36,117 nucleotides of DNA from contig JAAYKE010000047.1 of the NCBI GenBank assembly GCA_012522575.1, positions 1 through 36,117 on the forward strand. The letters run 5' to 3'. Origin of the DNA: Armatimonadota bacterium (GTDB lineage Bacteria; Armatimonadota; UBA5829). Shown here one piece after another: positions 17,108-36,117 of this stretch (position 1 is the first letter of the stretch; each line of letters starts with the position of its first letter). A program made the translations under genes and the position numbers. The notes beneath the pieces were generated by a model, which saw nothing but the letters and a program-made list of their open reading frames with translations, did no database searches and was not told where the DNA came from.

Positions 17108-17199
17108 GCGTTTTCGTAATTATTACAGTCAATATATACGCCCCGCATGTGGAATAAATCCCTGATAATGTATCCTTGAAAGCCGTCGAGGTTCGCTAT

Positions 17200-17544
17200 A
17201 TGAGAATGCGACTCAGCCGGGACAACAAAGGGTTCACCCTGATAGAGATAATGATTGTGATCGCGATAATTGCCGTCTTGATGGCGATTGCGCTGCCAAA
17301 CATGATGAGGGCGCGGGAGGCATCTCAAAAAAGAGCCTGCCTGTCTAATTTGCGGGAAATCAATCAGGCAAAAGAGCAATATGCTATGGAGTGTCGAAAG
17401 CAGGAGGGGGATGAGGTGAGCTGGAACGATATAGTGCCGGGTTATTTGAAAACTCAGCCGGCCTGTCCGCTTGGCTCGGCCTATGGGCTGCAGATCATTG
17501 GAACCTATCCCACATGCGCGAATCCTCAACACGTTATGCAGTAA
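17200..17544 (+). CDS. Short type IV pilin-like / pseudopilin protein 1
   Basis: The N-terminus is a class III (prepilin peptidase) signal: a short basic leader, then KG|FTLIEIMIVIAIIAVLMAIALPNM, the hydrophobic assembly helix with glutamate at position 5 of the mature protein. The remaining 80 or so residues are small and end in CPLGSAYGLQIIGTYPTC. The ATG at 17200 has GAGG upstream and gives 114 residues; a TTG at 17176 is open but less likely. Possible roles are type II secretion, a competence-type pilus or another pilus-like fibre; no assembly ATPase or prepilin peptidase is in view. It resembles the next pseudopilin, 217 bases downstream. Confidence 0.85.
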   Translation: MRMRLSRDNKGFTLIEIMIVIAIIAVLMAIALPNMMRAREASQKRACLSNLREINQAKEQYAMECRKQEGDEVSWNDIVPGYLKTQPACPLGSAYGLQIIGTYPTCANPQHVMQ

Positions 17545-17761
17545 TAAAATTGCTCGAAGGTGCTTTTTATATCAGCGCCGGCGGTGTTGTGGATCAACTT
17601 TATGTGCATTCCTGCCGATATATGAGGATGGCACAGAGGCTTATGAAATGCTCTCCGGGTAAAAAGCCTCGCGCTCATAGAAGAAATGCTTGTTCGGAAA
17701 TCCGCTCGGACTTGCCAGGGTATTTAACCGTGGTTCAGCCAGGGCCGAGGAGGTATCATTG

Positions 17762-18094
17762 ATGCGAAAGTCAATCAGAAAAAAAGGTTTTACGCTGGTG
17801 GAAGTTATGATAGTGGTGGCGATGATTGCTATGCTGCTCGCCATTGCCGCGCCCAGCTTCGTGAAAACCAGGGACACTGCGCGAACGACTGCCTGTCTTT
17901 CCAACCTCAAATCAGTCGATGACGCCAAGATGCAGTGGGCTATGGAAACTCACAAAAGCGACGGGGACGCAGTGCTATGGGCGGATCTTTCCCCGTCATA
18001 TATGAAGTCGCAGGTGGCTTGTCCGTGGGGATATGAATATACCCTGCAGCCTATCGGCGTGCCGCCATACTGTCCTGTGGTCGGCCACCACTAG
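17762..18094 (+). CDS. Short type IV pilin-like / pseudopilin protein 2
   Basis: This 110-residue protein has the prepilin signature KKG|FTLVEVMIVVAMIAMLLAIAAPSF. It is clearly a paralog of the preceding pseudopilin. Shared features are ACLSNL after the helix, AKxQxAMExxKxxGD, a W-x-D-x-x-P-x-Y-x-K segment, and CPxGxxYxLQxIGxxPxC near the end. I chose the ATG at 17762 because GAGGAGGT lies 7-8 bases upstream; the frame is open to 17690 without a leader-like sequence. The 217-base gap upstream includes a 7-bp inverted repeat GAGGCTT/AAGCCTC (17636-17642, 17664-17670), which may be an RNA hairpin. A hairpin follows the gene. Confidence 0.85.
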   Translation: MRKSIRKKGFTLVEVMIVVAMIAMLLAIAAPSFVKTRDTARTTACLSNLKSVDDAKMQWAMETHKSDGDAVLWADLSPSYMKSQVACPWGYEYTLQPIGVPPYCPVVGHH

Positions 18095-29570: not shown

Positions 29571-29599
29571 TTGACAGTTCTGCTGTAGCATGGTAAATC
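29571..29599 (+). promoter_or_regulatory. Putative promoter of secreted protein gene 1
   Basis: TTGACA (29571-29576), 17 bases and TAAATC (29594-29599). The -35 is perfect; the -10 is weak (3 of 6). The implied start point near 29606 puts the conserved leader element within about seven bases of the 5' end, the same arrangement as in the second copy. Confidence 0.5.
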
Positions 29600-29612
29600 T
29601 ACTGATAGAGGT

Positions 29613-29711
29613 ATTAGGCCGCGATTGACCACGATCGGGCCACTGTGTTTCTGTGGCCGGAAACCCAAAAATAATACCTGCTGATGCAGGGTCCGTGTGC
29701 TTACGCACGGA
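29613..29711 (+). ncRNA. Conserved structured leader RNA element, copy 1
   Basis: This element is shared with 35008-35105. Helix A: GGCC-(G)-CGAT (29617-29625) with ATCG-GGCC (29634-29641). Helix B: GGCCAC (29638-29643) with GTGGCC (29653-29658). Helix C: CCTGC (29678-29682) with GCAGG (29686-29690), weakly kept in copy 2. Helix D: TCCGTGT (29692-29698) with GCACGGA (29705-29711). A and B share the central GGCC (29638-29641), so they exclude each other in part and may form a two-state fold. Pairing in A, B and D is kept between copies in spite of base changes. It is about 190 bases before the start codon. I do not recognise it as a known riboswitch. Confidence 0.6.
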
Positions 29712-29901
29712 TTCTGCAATAATGCTTTAGTATGATTACGCACTCACGACGTTGTGTATTATTAATTGTAAGTTGTTAGAGATAGATGAAATGGAATATG
29801 TTTTATAGCAGTCCTGCAATTATAACCTAGCGTATAAGTGCGTGTCTTCCGATAATATGCAAATCGGGCAAGAAATCCTTATAGGAGGGTAAACAGTAAT
29901 A

Positions 29902-32900
29902 ATGAAAGGGAAACCAACTACATTGCTTGCACGTATCCCCGCTGCGACAATAATAGCCTGCGTATTGCTGGCTGTCATGGTGGTGGGCGTTGCGCAAGCG
30001 GCCGGACCGTATTATTATACGGCTCGCAAATATTCCGGGGCCGATGTTACGTACGCCGACAATTTTCAGACATCCGGCGGAATTGGTCATATCGCTGCAT
30101 CCGGTGGTGTTCTGACTCCTGCGGACCTTGTAGCAGCCGTTGGCGGGGGCTTCCAGGGCTACTACGTTAGTTCCAACAACACTGTGGTCGGCGACCGCTG
30201 GGGCAGATGGGAAGTAAACCTGCCGGAAGCCGGTGTGTTTAAGATCTGGGCTGTAGTCGCCGCGAACACCAGCGGACTGCCTTCTGTTCTACATCACGTT
30301 ACGGACAGGTTTGGGAACAGAGTGGCGGCAACTCCTGTCGATCAAAGTGTAGCCGGTGGCAAGATCAACACCTGGCAGGAACTCGGAACCTATGAGTTCG
30401 CTGCAAACGATGCCGCTCATTGCCAGGTCGAGTTGAACAACATAGGTTGGATCAACACCTCTGGCAGTATGTATTACGGCGCTCTTAAGTTCGAGCTTGT
30501 CGGCAAGACGCATCCGACGCTGATTTCTGCTGAACCAAAAGAGGACGGAACTGCCGTAGATCTCGTGTGGAGCGCTCCAACTTACGGGACGGTCGATCAC
30601 TACATCGTCGAGCGCAGCGATGGTAACGACGAGAGCTTCTCCGTCATCGAAGAGGACATTGCCAGCACTGAAACGACCTTTGCCGACTCAACCGGCGACT
30701 GCGACATTCTGTATTACTATCGCATCATCGCTGTTAATGACGACGAGGTAGAATCGGTGCCTTCCAACGTAAAGACAAGCATCAAGTGCGCGTCTGGCAC
30801 CCCCATGAAGGCCACCGATCCGGATCCTTATGATTGGGCCGACGTAATTCACACTAACCTGGACGACGTGAACGTTGTCGGCAAGCTCTCCTGGGAGCCC
30901 GGTGACGGCGCGACCGATCAGAACATTTACTTTGGCACCAGCGAGACCGCTGTTACCGATGCGGATGATACTTCTGCAGAGTTTAAGGGCACGCTGTCTG
31001 CGGCAGTCAAGAGTTGGACTCCTCCGGCCCTTGCTGCGAACACCGAATACTTCTGGCGCGTCGATCAGATGAACGTCGGCGGCGTTACAAAAGGCGACGT
31101 GTGGAGATTCAAGACCGGCGTTTCTGTCAAGCTGGTTCCTGTTCGAAGCACAGACCGCGGACACATTGAGTATCCAACCCGCGAGTGGAACGAAGTAACC
31201 TGGCATGAAGCTGGTGAGGTTCTTGACTTCGCAGTTTCTCCAGAGACCGGTGTCACCTGGCTCGGCTGGTCGATGAACGCCAGCGGCGCCCCGATTTTCG
31301 ATACAGAACTTGAGCTTAGCTCCGGCGCGGGCAACGGCTTTGTGGTTCCTGGCAATCATGCGACCCTGTATGCAGTCTTCCAGATGCCGACATATACTCT
31401 GAGTTTCGTCGGCGATCCGGTTGCCGGTCAGACATCTATGACACACAAGAACCTGACTTGGCCGACTGCCACCGACTACGAAGATGGCGACGTGGCCGAG
31501 ATCAAGGTTACTCCGGCTTCCAAGTGGCTCTTTGCAGGTTGGGAGAGCGACAAGGGCGGCGTATTCAACAACCGGTTCGCTGCCACCGCGACATATAAGA
31601 TGACTGCCGAAAATACGACCATCAAGGCGTATTTTACCAAGGCAGTTACAAACAACGTTGCCACTGGCACACGAGCCATAGTAGCCAACAGCGCCGAAGG
31701 TGACAGCAATGACTGGTATACAAGCCAGATCAACATCGGAGCTTACACTACTGACCCTGTTCAGAACTGGTCAAGAGTAATGATCAAGTGGGAGGACTGG
31801 GCCGGCTTCCAGTCATTCCCGGACCAGAGCCTGTTGCACGGTCTGGGTAAGATCACCCTGACCCACACTACTGCTTCCAGCTATTCGTCATTGGAGGCTA
31901 ACAATCTCAATGTTTCATTGTATGAAGTATTGAAGCCGTGGGTTTACACAACCGATGACAATGGTTGCTGGTGGCTTACCACAGACGGCACGACTCCTTG
32001 GGATACTCCCGGCGGAGACCGTGGCGAGCAGCTTGGCCCGACTCTTGAGTGGGTAGGCGTTCCTGTTCCTGACGCTCTAAAGATCTACACTCTGGAGCCA
32101 GGCAAAGACTATCGATACCTTCTTCGCAACGGCATACAAGCCAAGAGCGATAAAGAAGGCGCGATTCAGTACCGCAAGGGTATGACCAAAGATACGCTTG
32201 TAAACCTCTTCTACAACCCGCCGACCGGCGTGGGCAATGTAATTAGAGACTGGGCGTATCTGGGCGCATATGCTCAGGGTGGTACTGATGATCACCAACT
32301 GCGAATCGACACCGACCAGGTAGTTGGCACTTATAACGGCGTTCCGGTTAACGAGACTCAGTTGGCGGCTAAGACCGGCAAGGCCTTCGGCGACAAGTCC
32401 TGGGCTGTAACGACTGCCGATGACGATATCGTCGATATCAATGCTCTCTACGGAAGCGCGAAAGACAACTCATCCAGCTACTTCGCGGTCTACGTGAACA
32501 ACCCTGGCGATGCTGTATGGCCTGCGTATATCGGACTTGGTTCCGATGACTATGCAAAAGTCTGGACAAACGGCGTCCACCGCGGAACCAGAGCGATTGC
32601 TGCCGGCGTCAACGTTGACCAGTCCTGGATTGGCCCGTTCACCCTTACTTCGGGTTGGAACAGGGTTATTGTTAAGGTTGAGAACGGTGGCGGCGCCCAC
32701 GGAGTCTATGCACGACTTGCATATCAGGACCGCACAGCCATCACTGGTTTGACCTATTCTACATCTGACGATGTCGCTCCTACCAACCCGACCTCAGTTA
32801 CCGAGGCCGGCGGCGCTCAGAGCGGCGTTGCTCAGTCTGCAGTTACTGCTCCTACGTTCGCCTTCAACGGCGCAGCCGACGACAAGTCAGGCGTTCGCGG

Positions 32901-33366
32901 TTTCAAGGTCTACTTCGGAACAGATGCTAATGGCGTGCCTAACACCTGGCATGCGACCGGTTCTGCGTTTGCGCCGGGCGCCAAGGATCCTGGCACTTAC
33001 TATCTGCGCATAGCCACTGTTGACTATGCTCTGAACGAGGCTGCTGCTGTAACCGCGTTCACGTTTATTGTCGATGAGCAAGAGCCGGAGCCGGAGCACG
33101 TCGATTCTTATGGTATTTCCAATAAGGCGACCCTCGACGCTGCTACTGCTGCCGCTGCTGCTACCGAGAAGTTCACGGTTTGGGGTAAGGTCACCAAGCT
33201 CAACGATGATAGCTTCAAAGTTGACGATGGATCTGGCGTTCCTGTGAAGATCATCAAGACCGCTCACGGACTTGCCAATGGCGACTTTGCTTCTGCTACC
33301 GGAACTCTTGACGTTAGCGGAGCCGAGCCGGTTCTGACTGCAGTTTATGTTACCAAGCAGGAATAA
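29902..33366 (+). CDS. Large secreted multidomain protein, paralog 1
   Basis: The 1154 residues start with a signal peptide (cleavage after about residue 33, VAQA-AG). Domain order by eye: a golvesin/CBM-like beta domain (about 36-200) with RWEVNLPEAGVFKIWAVV and NTWQELGTYEF; an FN3-like domain (about 205-295); a second FN3-like domain (about 303-410) ending FWRVDQMNVGGVTKGDVWRF; two Listeria-type beta-repeat segments (about 411-590) with WLGWSMN and LFAGWESDKGG; a DNRLRE-like part (about 590-790); a further beta region with SDDYAKVWTNG; an FN3-like segment near 1000-1080; and an OB-like C-terminus (about 1095-1154). No sortase, PEP-CTERM or membrane anchor is seen. It is probably a surface or matrix protein. 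The ribosome-binding site GGAGGG is 12 bases from the ATG, longer than in paralog 2. Confidence 0.8.
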   Translation: MKGKPTTLLARIPAATIIACVLLAVMVVGVAQAAGPYYYTARKYSGADVTYADNFQTSGGIGHIAASGGVLTPADLVAAVGGGFQGYYVSSNNTVVGDRWGRWEVNLPEAGVFKIWAVVAANTSGLPSVLHHVTDRFGNRVAATPVDQSVAGGKINTWQELGTYEFAANDAAHCQVELNNIGWINTSGSMYYGALKFELVGKTHPTLISAEPKEDGTAVDLVWSAPTYGTVDHYIVERSDGNDESFSVIEEDIASTETTFADSTGDCDILYYYRIIAVNDDEVESVPSNVKTSIKCASGTPMKATDPDPYDWADVIHTNLDDVNVVGKLSWEPGDGATDQNIYFGTSETAVTDADDTSAEFKGTLSAAVKSWTPPALAANTEYFWRVDQMNVGGVTKGDVWRFKTGVSVKLVPVRSTDRGHIEYPTREWNEVTWHEAGEVLDFAVSPETGVTWLGWSMNASGAPIFDTELELSSGAGNGFVVPGNHATLYAVFQMPTYTLSFVGDPVAGQTSMTHKNLTWPTATDYEDGDVAEIKVTPASKWLFAGWESDKGGVFNNRFAATATYKMTAENTTIKAYFTKAVTNNVATGTRAIVANSAEGDSNDWYTSQINIGAYTTDPVQNWSRVMIKWEDWAGFQSFPDQSLLHGLGKITLTHTTASSYSSLEANNLNVSLYEVLKPWVYTTDDNGCWWLTTDGTTPWDTPGGDRGEQLGPTLEWVGVPVPDALKIYTLEPGKDYRYLLRNGIQAKSDKEGAIQYRKGMTKDTLVNLFYNPPTGVGNVIRDWAYLGAYAQGGTDDHQLRIDTDQVVGTYNGVPVNETQLAAKTGKAFGDKSWAVTTADDDIVDINALYGSAKDNSSSYFAVYVNNPGDAVWPAYIGLGSDDYAKVWTNGVHRGTRAIAAGVNVDQSWIGPFTLTSGWNRVIVKVENGGGAHGVYARLAYQDRTAITGLTYSTSDDVAPTNPTSVTEAGGAQSGVAQSAVTAPTFAFNGAADDKSGVRGFKVYFGTDANGVPNTWHATGSAFAPGAKDPGTYYLRIATVDYALNEAAAVTAFTFIVDEQEPEPEHVDSYGISNKATLDAATAAAAATEKFTVWGKVTKLNDDSFKVDDGSGVPVKIIKTAHGLANGDFASATGTLDVSGAEPVLTAVYVTKQE
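29948..30739 (+). repeat. Duplicated coding block, copy 1
   Basis: This 792-base block aligns without gaps to 35326-36117 at an offset of 5378 bases. I counted roughly 45 differences by eye, about 94% identity. It begins abruptly at codon 16 of the gene; the first 15 codons and the leader outside the structured element are far less alike. The true 3' end of the block is unknown because copy 2 is cut by the window edge. Confidence 0.85.
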
Positions 33367-33391
33367 ACATAACGCAGTAATCTGAGTACCC

Positions 33392-33426
33392 AACCGGGTC
33401 GATCTTATGGTCGGCCCGGTTTTTTA
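33392..33426 (+). terminator. Rho-independent terminator after secreted protein gene 1
   Basis: AACCGGG (33392-33398) pairs with CCCGGTT (33415-33421), with extra inner pairs, followed by a run of T residues to 33425. It lies 26 bases after the stop codon. Confidence 0.85.
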
Positions 33427-33500
33427 TGTGTGGCGGCTGCAGACAGGATGCTGAGAAAGTTGCAACCAAAGTCGAGGATGGGACGATGCGGGCGCGGAAA

Positions 33501-34793
33501 TCAAACGCCCCCTGATGCGTAGAACGCAAGCTCGCAGCCAATCACCGCGATATTTCCGAGAATCATAATAATTATGCCGACTGCAACGGCGATCTTTTTG
33601 GCTCGCTGAGTGGGCAACAGCGCGTCGAATCCCGTCACAAAAGCAATTCCAATCACGCCGGCCACACACATAAACAACCGGCCCTGCAGGTTGGCCATGC
33701 TGTCAACCACCAGCACATACCTTACCCACGAAACCCAGACCGTCAATGCCGTGAACAGCAAAACCCACAAATTTCGATCGAGGTTGCGTCGAATGGCCCG
33801 AACAATCAGACCTGCGATTGCTGCGGCAGTGATACCCAGCACCGGCCAGAAGTATGCCCACCAGGTTACATATTTCCAGAGAAGCCAGAAAGGGGTCCAG
33901 AAATAACCGTAGGCATCGCGCGTTGCCAAAAAGATTGTATATAATGTAAGCGCCGGTTCCGCCAGCGCGCTTGCCAATCCGTGAGGAAGCACAGGATGAT
34001 AGAGCGATCGCGGCATAACTGAGCCGTGCACGATCCAGCACCTCACAAACCACCAGCCCCCCACGATTATCGCAGTTGCCAGGACAATTCCCAGCGATGT
34101 CAGCACGCTTTTGTAGTTTGCATATTGCCTCCTGCGGCATACGGCGATAGAAATTATCAGGAAAACAGGAGAGAGTATCAATCCCTGCGCTTTGCTTAAA
34201 GCGGGAAGTCCGATAACCACCCCAAGCGTTGCGGCATCGCGCCGCGACAGGGATTCGGCTTTGAAATAGCGCGTCATAATAGCCAGCGCCCACGTGAATA
34301 GAAGAGCAATGAGTATCTCGTTATTCAGCACTCCGGCTGTATAAGCCGCGTTTGGGATCAGGGCAACAAACGCCGCAGTCGCCAGGGCATAGGCCGTGTT
34401 TTGGAAATGCTCGTGAGCCAGTCTATACACCCAGTAAATCCAAATCACTCCAATGCCGATGCCAAGCAGCCGTAAAATTCTCCAGATAACGTCTGATGGG
34501 ATGCCCAGAAAGCTGCATATCGAGTAGGGCAGTGCCATTATCGCATAGTACAAAGGAGGGTGATGCCCGGCATGGGTTGATATCGAGCGCTCAGAGGTCG
34601 TTATTTGATTAGAAATCGGCGGCAGCGCGAGTTTGGTTGCGATCGATCTTATATAAATGAAGTGCGCAGGCTCATCCGGGCCGTATTTTAGCCAGGTCGC
34701 CAGTGAATATATCAGGGACAGCACGGCGAATGCTGTGAGTATCAAAACGAGCGATCGCGTTGCGTTGCGGTTGATGTCGGACTGTTCAGGCAT
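33501..34793 (-). CDS. Polytopic membrane glycosyltransferase-like protein (ArnT/PMT or DUF2142 type)
   Basis: The 430-residue protein has about ten membrane helices. The first periplasmic loop holds the acidic motif GPDEPAHFIYIRSI, followed by HHPPLYYAIMALPYS, PNAAYTAGVLNNEILIALLFTWAL and GLPALSKAQGLIL. These fit GT-C type enzymes that use polyprenyl-phosphate sugars (ArnT/PMT or DUF2142 families). It may glycosylate surface lipids or proteins; the flanking secreted proteins are conceivable acceptors but that is a guess. There is no ribosome-binding site before the ATG, and a promoter-like sequence sits so close that the mRNA may be leaderless. It lies inside the duplicated interval, opposite to both secreted-protein genes. 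Confidence 0.8.
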   Translation of the reverse strand: MPEQSDINRNATRSLVLILTAFAVLSLIYSLATWLKYGPDEPAHFIYIRSIATKLALPPISNQITTSERSISTHAGHHPPLYYAIMALPYSICSFLGIPSDVIWRILRLLGIGIGVIWIYWVYRLAHEHFQNTAYALATAAFVALIPNAAYTAGVLNNEILIALLFTWALAIMTRYFKAESLSRRDAATLGVVIGLPALSKAQGLILSPVFLIISIAVCRRRQYANYKSVLTSLGIVLATAIIVGGWWFVRCWIVHGSVMPRSLYHPVLPHGLASALAEPALTLYTIFLATRDAYGYFWTPFWLLWKYVTWWAYFWPVLGITAAAIAGLIVRAIRRNLDRNLWVLLFTALTVWVSWVRYVLVVDSMANLQGRLFMCVAGVIGIAFVTGFDALLPTQRAKKIAVAVGIIIMILGNIAVIGCELAFYASGGV

Positions 34794-34799
34794 ACTAAA

Positions 34800-34828
34800 A
34801 GTATATCAATACCACAATCGCAGAGCAA
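34800..34828 (-). promoter_or_regulatory. Putative promoter giving a leaderless membrane-glycosyltransferase mRNA
   Basis: On the minus strand TTGCTC (34828-34823), 17 bases, then TGATATACT with the -10 TATACT at 34805-34800, then six bases, then the ATG at 34793. The TGA before TATACT makes an extended -10. The -35 is weak (3 of 6). Confidence 0.45.
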
Positions 34829-34966
34829 TAAACGAGCTTAACACTCATAAGCTCCCTATACTGAGTAACCCGCTTGTGGCGGGTCACAAATATAACCCTT
34901 GATAGTTGGCTTTCGAACAAGTAACCGAGGAAATAGCAATATTATATATAAATTAATCGATACCCC

Positions 34967-34995
34967 TTTACAAAAGCCAATTTATGGGGAATAAT
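34967..34995 (+). promoter_or_regulatory. Putative promoter of secreted protein gene 2
   Basis: TTTACA (34967-34972), 17 bases and AATAAT (34990-34995), each matching the consensus at 5 of 6 positions. The implied start near 35002 puts the leader element within about six bases of the RNA 5' end, as in copy 1. Confidence 0.55.
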
Positions 34996-35007
34996 ACCGG
35001 TGAGAGC

Positions 35008-35105
35008 ATTAGGCCGCGGTTGTTCACGATCGGGCTATTGTGTTTCTGTGGCCGGAAACGAGAATGATTCCTGCTGTTGTGGAGTTCGTGTAGTTGATAT
35101 GCGAA
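35008..35105 (+). ncRNA. Conserved structured leader RNA element, copy 2
   Basis: This copy aligns with 29613-29711. Helix A: GGCC-(G)-CGGT (35012-35020) with ATCG-GGCT (35029-35036), where A-to-G and C-to-T changes keep pairing as G-U. Helix B: GGCTAT (35033-35038) with GTGGCC (35048-35053), all six pairs kept with two G-U. Helix D: TTCGTGT (35085-35091) with ATGCGAA (35099-35105); relative to copy 1 one C-G pair has become U-A and three others switch between Watson-Crick and wobble. Loop sequences TGTGTTTCT in B and the following GTGGCCGGAAAC stretch are identical in both copies. It is 175 bases before the start codon. Confidence 0.6.
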
Positions 35106-35279
35106 TTCTGCGAACTTGCGTTACGCAGGCGTGTATGGCCGCGGCGCAATGTTTCTCAAAGACGCTGAGCATTATAAGCAGCGTAGTTTGTTTTTCGCTG
35201 CCCTGGGTTGGGTTGTATGCAAATATGCATATCTAACATATCTTTCCAACCGGGCAGAAATATTGTAGGAGGGTAAACA

Positions 35280-36117
35280 ATGAAAGGTAAGCTTTCAGTT
35301 TTACTTGCGCGTGTTCCCGCCACCGCAATAATAGCCTGCGTATTGCTGGCTGTTATGGTGGTGGGCGTTGCGCAAGCGGGCGGACCGTATTATTATACGG
35401 CTCGCAAATATGCCGGAGGCGATCTTACGTACGCCGACAATTTTCAGACATCCGGCGGAATCGGTCATATCGCTGCATCCGGTGGTGTTCTGACTAATAC
35501 GGAGCTTGTAGCAGCCGTTGGCGCGAACTTCCAGGGCTACTACGTTAGTTCCAACAACACTGTGGTCGGCGACCGCTGGGGCAGATGGGAAGTAAACTTG
35601 CCGGAACCCGGCGTGTTTAAGATCTGGGCTGTAGTTGGCGCGAACACCAGTGGGCTGCCTTCTGTTCTACATCACGTTACAGACAGGTTTGGGAACAGAG
35701 TGGCGGCAACCCCTGTCGATCAAAGCGTAGACGGCGGCAAGATCAACACCTGGCAGGAACTCGGAACCTATGAGTTCGCTGCAAACGATGCCGCTCATTG
35801 CCAGGTCGAACTGAACAATATAGGTTGGATCGACACTTCGGGCAGTATGTATTACGGCGCTCTTAAGTTCGAGCTTGTCGGCAAGACGAATCCGACGCTG
35901 ATTTCTGCTACACCAAAAGAGGACGGAACTGCCGTCGAACTCGTGTGGAGCGCTCCAACTTACGGGACGGTCAATCACTACATCATTGAGCGCAGCGATG
36001 GTAACGACGAGAACTTCTCCGTCATCGAAGACGACATTGCCAAAACTGAAACGACCTTTGCCGACTCAACCGGCGACTGCGACATTCTGTATTACTATCG
36101 CATCATTGCTGTTAATG
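35280..36117 (+). CDS. Large secreted multidomain protein, paralog 2 (cut by window end)
   Basis: The ATG at 35280 follows GGAGGG by six bases. The frame stays open for 279 complete codons to the window edge. The protein has the same signal peptide (VAQA end), the golvesin/CBM-like domain (GRWEVNLPEPGVFKIWAVV, NTWQELGTYEF) and the start of the first FN3-like domain as paralog 1, so it is probably another large secreted surface protein. Its first 15 codons differ from paralog 1 (MKGKLSVLLARVPATA against MKGKPTTLLARIPAAT), and then the two are about 94% identical in DNA. Confidence 0.85.
   Translation, partial: MKGKLSVLLARVPATAIIACVLLAVMVVGVAQAGGPYYYTARKYAGGDLTYADNFQTSGGIGHIAASGGVLTNTELVAAVGANFQGYYVSSNNTVVGDRWGRWEVNLPEPGVFKIWAVVGANTSGLPSVLHHVTDRFGNRVAATPVDQSVDGGKINTWQELGTYEFAANDAAHCQVELNNIGWIDTSGSMYYGALKFELVGKTNPTLISATPKEDGTAVELVWSAPTYGTVNHYIIERSDGNDENFSVIEDDIAKTETTFADSTGDCDILYYYRIIAVN
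35326..36117 (+). repeat. Duplicated coding block, copy 2
   Basis: This is the partner of 29948-30739, same orientation, gap-free over the visible 792 bases. The unit distance of 5378 bases includes the oppositely oriented membrane glycosyltransferase gene. The block continues past the window edge. Confidence 0.85.

Follow-up and report, generated by a model that had tools for sequence, protein, structure and literature searches.

A structured leader RNA of two Armatimonadota secreted-protein genes as the predicted docking site of a conserved 3'UTR-derived RNA

Introduction

What does a structured RNA do at the start of two neighbouring genes for secreted proteins? The question is raised by a stretch of 36,117 bp from an Armatimonadota genome (contig JAAYKE010000047.1; the whole stretch is referred to here as the window), in which an element of ca. 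108 nt occurs twice, each time directly behind promoter-like sequence. An initial annotation of this DNA had described a structured leader RNA common to two secreted-protein paralogs, with its pairing kept through sequence changes, and that description stands. As possible functions it had offered a new riboswitch class, a protein-binding leader or an mRNA-stability element, and of these the riboswitch fares less well. Our searches of the open-access literature for Armatimonadetes in combination with riboswitch, candidate structured RNA or small RNA found nothing relevant.

The analysis presented below argues that the structured leader probably presents a docking site for a predicted trans-acting RNA and is part of a secreted-protein regulon. 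If true, this would be, as far as we could find, the first regulon of such a kind for the Armatimonadota, made up of one single-copy RNA, whose seed is conserved order-wide, and of matching sites in many secreted-protein leaders. It would also mean that a leader resembling a lone riboswitch candidate can belong to a pair of RNAs that act in trans.

Position of the element, promoters and genes

The features are listed in Table 1. The copy in front of gene 1 is called w1, that in front of gene 2 is called w2, and a third copy, from a sister genome, is called G001. The two window copies can be aligned end to end and the remaining leader sequence cannot, so that two earlier statements, namely that there are two conserved copies behind promoter-like sequence and that the rest of the leaders has diverged, are both borne out. 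The promoter-like site of gene 1 was missed by the consensus scanner because its -10 hexamer is weak; the sister genome has the same promoter arrangement (TTGACA-17-TAAACC) directly upstream of its element. Since promoter-like sequence is found right upstream of all three copies the RNA probably begins at P1, the first helix, and in each copy the transcription start predicted from this sequence falls within a few nt of the 5' end of the element. The distance from the element to the ATG is 184 nt for gene 1 (ATG at 29902) and ca. 168 nt for gene 2 (ATG at 35280). Between the element and the ribosome site the leader is diverged and variable in length, the start codon being ca. 170–185 nt away in the window and ca. 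40 nt away in G001.

The gene 1 protein has a weak golvesin-like N-terminal region, an InlB-type B repeat, and a C-terminal domain which is common to many secreted proteins of the same genome. This shared C-terminal stretch of ca. 90 aa (window 33094-33363), with no Pfam family over it, is possibly a sorting or attachment domain. Contig C71 of the same genome (G000) ends in a frame with 84% identity to gene 1 residues 388-1154; judged by this similarity, the frame may be the continuation of gene 2. Elsewhere in the window (17176-18094) lie two adjoining prepilin-like genes of nearly the same layout, the first of which, the only one scanned, matches Pfam N_methyl.

Table 1. Locations of the leader elements, their helices, the associated genes and signals, and the conserved 3'UTR RNA
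Feature	Location	Strand	Basis or remarks
Promoter-like site, gene 1 (TTGACA-17-TAAATC)	29571..29599	+	Read from sequence; expected start ca. 29605
Leader element copy 1 (w1)	29610-29718	+	Alignment, folding, column comparison
Helices of w1	P1 29610-29616/29672-29678; P2 29617-29641; P3 29647-29664; P4 29686-29718	+	
Shine-Dalgarno AGGAGGG, gene 1	29883..29889	+	Sequence
Gene 1	29902..33366	+	Secreted protein, 1154 aa, signal peptide
Promoter-like site, gene 2 (TTTACA-17-AATAAT)	34967..34995	+	Promoter scan and reading
Leader element copy 2 (w2)	35005-35112	+	Alignment, folding
Helices of w2	P1 35005-35011/35065-35071; P2 35012-35036; P3 35042-35059; P4 35079-35111	+	Two pairs of P1 lost
Shine-Dalgarno AGGAGGG, gene 2	35267..35273	+	Sequence
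Gene 2	35280..36117	+	Gene 1 paralog (90% identity over the first 279 aa), runs off the contig
Conserved 3'UTR RNA (L024)	G000:C117:2505-2611	-	Behind secreted 243-aa protein; counterparts in 11 relatives

Fold and conservation

The element is composed of four helices: P1 (7 pairs), P2 (10 pairs and one bulged base), P3 (7 pairs) and P4 (14 pairs). P4 contains what had been called helix D, to which seven pairs with compensatory changes had been assigned. The changes are real and the helix is longer than claimed, with 14 of 14 pairs kept in both window copies and none broken, by way of one C-G to U-A double change and several one-sided wobble changes. The folding z-scores are -5.7 for w1, -5.8 for G001 and -2.9 for w2. 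The w1 and G001 copies fold unaided into P1-P4; the predicted fold of w2 consists of P4 and an alternative pairing of the 5' GGCCGCG with UGUGGCC, the probability of which is 0.92 in w2, ca. 0.5 in G001 and 0 in w1. The potential for two competing folds suggested by the initial annotation thus exists with this helix as the real competitor; the proposed competition between helices A and B falls away, helix B having a pair probability of ca. 0 in all three copies and not being expected to form.

Between w1 and G001 only 5 of the 74 paired columns differ as against 14 of 29 unpaired ones, and this far greater conservation of the paired columns is good evidence for a selected fold. The variable P4 stems look like scaffold, and to judge from these alignments the leader fold is under selection. 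Significant covariation, which had been named as a check, was not obtained: the counts of both-sided changes were not above those in column shuffles, three sequences being too few for a test, and the competing helix has no covariation across the three copies.

Homologs and database searches

Covariance models (R1 and R2) run over 61 and 291 genomes of the phylum recovered only the three leader copies. The search for relatives proposed earlier was therefore rewarded within the genus, with a third copy at G001:C79:155-259 (JAAYKG010000172.1), and yielded none beyond it. The sister genome, Armatimonadetes bacterium AS10tlH2TH_387, is the other genome of the genus compared, and its copy precedes the orthologous gene and, like the window locus, follows etfBA. 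A partial match on contig C117 involved P3 alone and was not counted as a leader copy; a match in G265 (E 0.057, in one of the 291 genomes) was taken as chance. The comparison with Rfam, likewise suggested, returned no family at the gathering threshold, and at relaxed thresholds gave low-scoring chance matches only, mostly to microRNA models and none on the elements discussed. The structured 5' leader is what the element has in common with Rfam riboswitches and leaders, none of whose families matches it.

Two mutually exclusive folds, the balance of which differs among the three copies, are what a metabolite riboswitch or other cis-acting sensor would need if it were to work through competition of P2/P3 with GGCCGCG:UGUGGCC. 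We consider such a sensor highly improbable. It would be represented by three copies in one genus, with no homolog further afield among the 291 genomes and no Rfam match; promoter and terminator scans of the leaders revealed no terminator behind the element, the downstream leader is diverged, neither a terminator nor sequestration of the ribosome site is conserved there, and the competing helix does not covary. Moreover, the sole invariant part of the element would be explained by pairing in trans, as described below. Control of the ribosome site by the leader was rejected separately, the site being predicted by folding to pair not with the element and at most with nearby sequence.

P3 and its antisense match in a conserved 3'UTR

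The hairpin GUUUCUGUGGCCGGAAAC is the sole part of the element that is invariant in all three copies; P3 (GTTTCTGTGGCCGGAAAC) is identical over 18 nt, loop included, in contrast to the drift of the other stems. Outside the two leaders the genome has a single exact match to the 18-mer. It lies on contig C117, immediately past the stop codon of a gene whose product is a 243-aa secreted protein with no Pfam match, and is antisense to that gene. The C117 mRNA therefore ends with the exact reverse complement of P3 (G000:C117:2594-2611), which lies in the 3'UTR and is followed by a hairpin and then by an intrinsic terminator. Across all species genomes the exact P3 18-mer was found at 11 places, which, apart from the sister genome, is about the number due to chance (the expectation being an estimate). 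The sister genome has the same 3'UTR arrangement with one inserted base, an extra A in the seed which its leader does not match. The predicted leader/3'UTR duplex has an energy of -35.6 kcal/mol here and -33.8 kcal/mol in the sister. Within the window's genus no other leader carries the site.

The complement of P3 falls on a single-stranded, order-wide conserved stretch, UCCGGCCAC(UAYGAA), which precedes the terminator. TCCGGCCAC is invariant in the 3'UTRs of 12 of 12 genomes, where it is succeeded by a hairpin and a terminator-like hairpin. In ten further genomes of the family or order an unpaired [A/T]TCCGGCCAC-TAYGAA is present at the same place (TAAGAA in G016), and downstream of this seed come a G+C-rich hairpin of varying sequence and then a terminator-like hairpin. 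No Rfam family matched this 3'UTR RNA in the loci scanned. Conserved seed, hairpin and terminator together are the anatomy of a 3'UTR-derived small RNA, e.g. CpxQ, the small RNA itself being predicted in the present case. An antiterminator (GGCCAC:GUGGC) between the 3'UTR seed and its own terminator was considered by eye and rejected; it is possible in some genomes and absent from G016 and G000.

A leader of this kind could also act without any partner. The 5'UTR of ompA is an mRNA stabiliser, and the small RNA MicA pairs at the ompA translational start site (PMC7509114). In a stabiliser of the ompA type the folded transcript start protects the mRNA of an abundant surface protein from 5'-end-dependent decay, which would suit an element that has strong stems, begins within a few nt of the predicted start in three copies, and whose P4 drifts in sequence with pairing kept, in a leader that can otherwise vary freely. 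Such a function leaves unexplained why P3 is invariant over 18 nt, loop included, when other stems vary, and why it should have an exact antisense match on a conserved 3'UTR seed; as the whole explanation we judge it unlikely. The stabilising and docking roles can coexist, and the element would then resemble ompA, a surface-protein mRNA whose folded 5' end is likewise targeted by a small RNA (here both the 5' end and the targeting are predicted). The difference from the MicA/ompA case is one of position, the window element being separated from the downstream ribosome site by ca. 155 nt or more.

Complementary sites in the leaders of relatives

In nine relatives with the 3'UTR RNA seed UCCGGCCACUA its complement UAGUGGCCGGA is mostly found in 5' leaders. 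The exact seed complement TAGTGGCCGGA has 29 sites in nine genomes besides the 3'UTR and 21 of these are intergenic, compared with 3 of 60 for control variants carrying one- or two-base changes (Fisher p ca. 5e-11, the count not being fully independent because orthologs and paralogs occur among the leaders). The control sites differ in the first two letters (CAG, CTG, TTG and, in the window's genus, also TAG). Seven of the 29 were already known when the count was devised, and without these the figure is 16 intergenic sites out of 22. With open frames of 110 codons or more taken as genes, 19 of the 21 intergenic sites have a same-strand gene as their next downstream neighbour, and each of those 19 genes specifies a hydrophobic, signal-peptide-like N-terminus (signal peptides being called by hydrophobicity only), the background being 36 of 128 genes around control sites. 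The 3'UTR motif escaped detection in five family genomes, and these have zero occurrences of TAGTGGCCGGA in 13.2 Mb.

Seed complements with up to two mismatches were not in excess over controls. The same applies to the pooled 11-mers; only the position of the exact matching 11-mers differed from the controls. Among individual genomes G008 has the 3'UTR RNA and no exact 11-nt site, G004 has only one such site, and in G017, where the site is present in leaders, a 3'UTR seed was not recognised.

In the leaders of genus g4 (G011 and G013) the site is invariant, unpaired, and located between two hairpins that differ in sequence yet are paired; in some of them the second hairpin is followed by a T-run and is terminator-like. 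This leader class sits upstream of secreted-protein genes, its stems vary with pairing kept, and it has no Rfam match. At L243, L245, L241, L262, L263 and L247 (G011, G013) the order is hairpin, hairpin, unpaired RTAGTGGCCGGA and terminator-like hairpin.

The sites might instead be recognized as DNA, that is, as the binding site of a transcription factor or as an alternative promoter signal which is near-palindromic by chance. They do lie near promoters, and their arms (GTTTC/GAAAC) are palindromic in the window's genus. Nevertheless, 19 of the 21 intergenic sites in relatives are oriented towards the next gene (one having a divergent gene on the left), they are mostly 49-253 nt from that gene and between RNA hairpins of varying sequence, and the 3'UTR complement precedes a terminator at the end of a gene. 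A DNA-level element is on these grounds very unlikely.

Seed and sites changing together

Recognition by base pairing between two RNAs, the reading favoured here, can be followed through the differences between genera. The g4 seeds read CUAUG and 5 of 9 g4 leaders have CATAG. In g2, g3 and G015 the seed is CUACG; six of the leaders there have CGTAG and none has CATAG, so that a C-A mismatch is never seen in genera with the CUACG seed; the CATAG versus CGTAG contrast is weak when taken alone (p = 0.03). In the window's genus (g1) the seed is CCACAGAAAC and the leaders have GTTTCTGTGG, the two being complementary over 18 nt, and one g3 leader is complementary to its own seed over 17 nt. Three genus-level versions of the seed are thus matched by leaders, with one unmatched insertion in the sister genome. 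Taken with the 18-nt match peculiar to the window's genus, the contrast between CATAG and CGTAG indicates that the two predicted RNAs base-pair. Since seed and sites vary together between genera, the pairing is directly testable.

Proposed mechanism and comparison with known systems

We propose that the element, at the very start of two tandem secreted-protein mRNAs, would offer P3 as the docking site of a trans-acting RNA derived from the 3' end of the C117 243-aa secreted-protein mRNA. This 3' end, presumably released as a small RNA, would carry the seed UCCGGCCAC and genus-specific bases, followed by a hairpin and the intrinsic terminator. An RNA partner fits better than a small molecule because the invariant 18-nt hairpin complements the conserved seed of another 3' end. 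Both partners can here fold as hairpins with complementary loops and the pairing may therefore start loop-loop. Pairing would disrupt P3 and so alter the equilibrium of the two leader folds, a possible use for the modelled bistability; of the steps proposed this one has the least support. In vivo the pairing would be expected to change mRNA stability or early transcription and not to block the ribosome site. Such a block is unlikely in the window because at least ca. 155 nt separate the element from that site; the sister genome has a spacing of just ca. 40 nt. Stabilisation of the mRNA may be the outcome.

In related genera the same predicted RNA has complementary sites between hairpins in several secreted-protein leaders, in some of them right before an intrinsic terminator. 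The comparisons suggest that a little-studied bacterial group may use one predicted small RNA to control many secreted proteins. A more far-reaching version, which we put forward tentatively and regard as rather doubtful, is that throughout the order one conserved 3'UTR-derived RNA would control a secreted- and surface-protein regulon via small-RNA-controlled transcription attenuation at leader terminators, and that in the window's genus this has been narrowed to two tandem mRNAs, with an 18-nt hairpin-hairpin match refolding a bistable leader.

Antisense pairs such as RNAI/RNAII and CopA/CopT consist of complementary hairpins with fully complementary loops. The window's genus is similar in having hairpins with complementary loops; unlike these pairs the two RNAs would be trans-encoded from unrelated loci, and in other genera both seed and sites are unpaired. 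CpxQ is an RNase E-processed small RNA derived from the 3'UTR of cpxP in enterobacteria (PMC9438474). The likeness lies in an unusually conserved 3'UTR of an envelope- or secreted-protein gene, a conserved seed, and several targets among membrane or exported proteins (PMC9438474). In contrast to CpxQ the small RNA is predicted only, the complementarity to leaders extends over 11-18 nt, there is no sequence relation, the phylum is the Armatimonadota, and the docking sites lie at a long distance 5' of the ribosome site and in several leaders immediately precede a terminator.

Related sequences in G017 and g3

Four leaders of G017 (L332, L348, L350 and L353) have TAGTGGCCGGA ca. 90-140 nt upstream of prepilin-like genes (FTLIELLVVIAIIAILAAILFP); in three of them a strong hairpin follows the site, and L350 and L353 have in addition a T-run. 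The same genome contains dispersed palindromic REP-like repeats with GTAGTGGCCGGG-N6-CCCGGCC (L355, L362, L364), which are similar in sequence to the site and could confuse motif counts. Lastly, in genus g3 (L258, L266 and L198) an extra copy of the seed or of its complement is found inside a long near-perfect intergenic stem (GAGACTGTCTCG...CGAGACAG).
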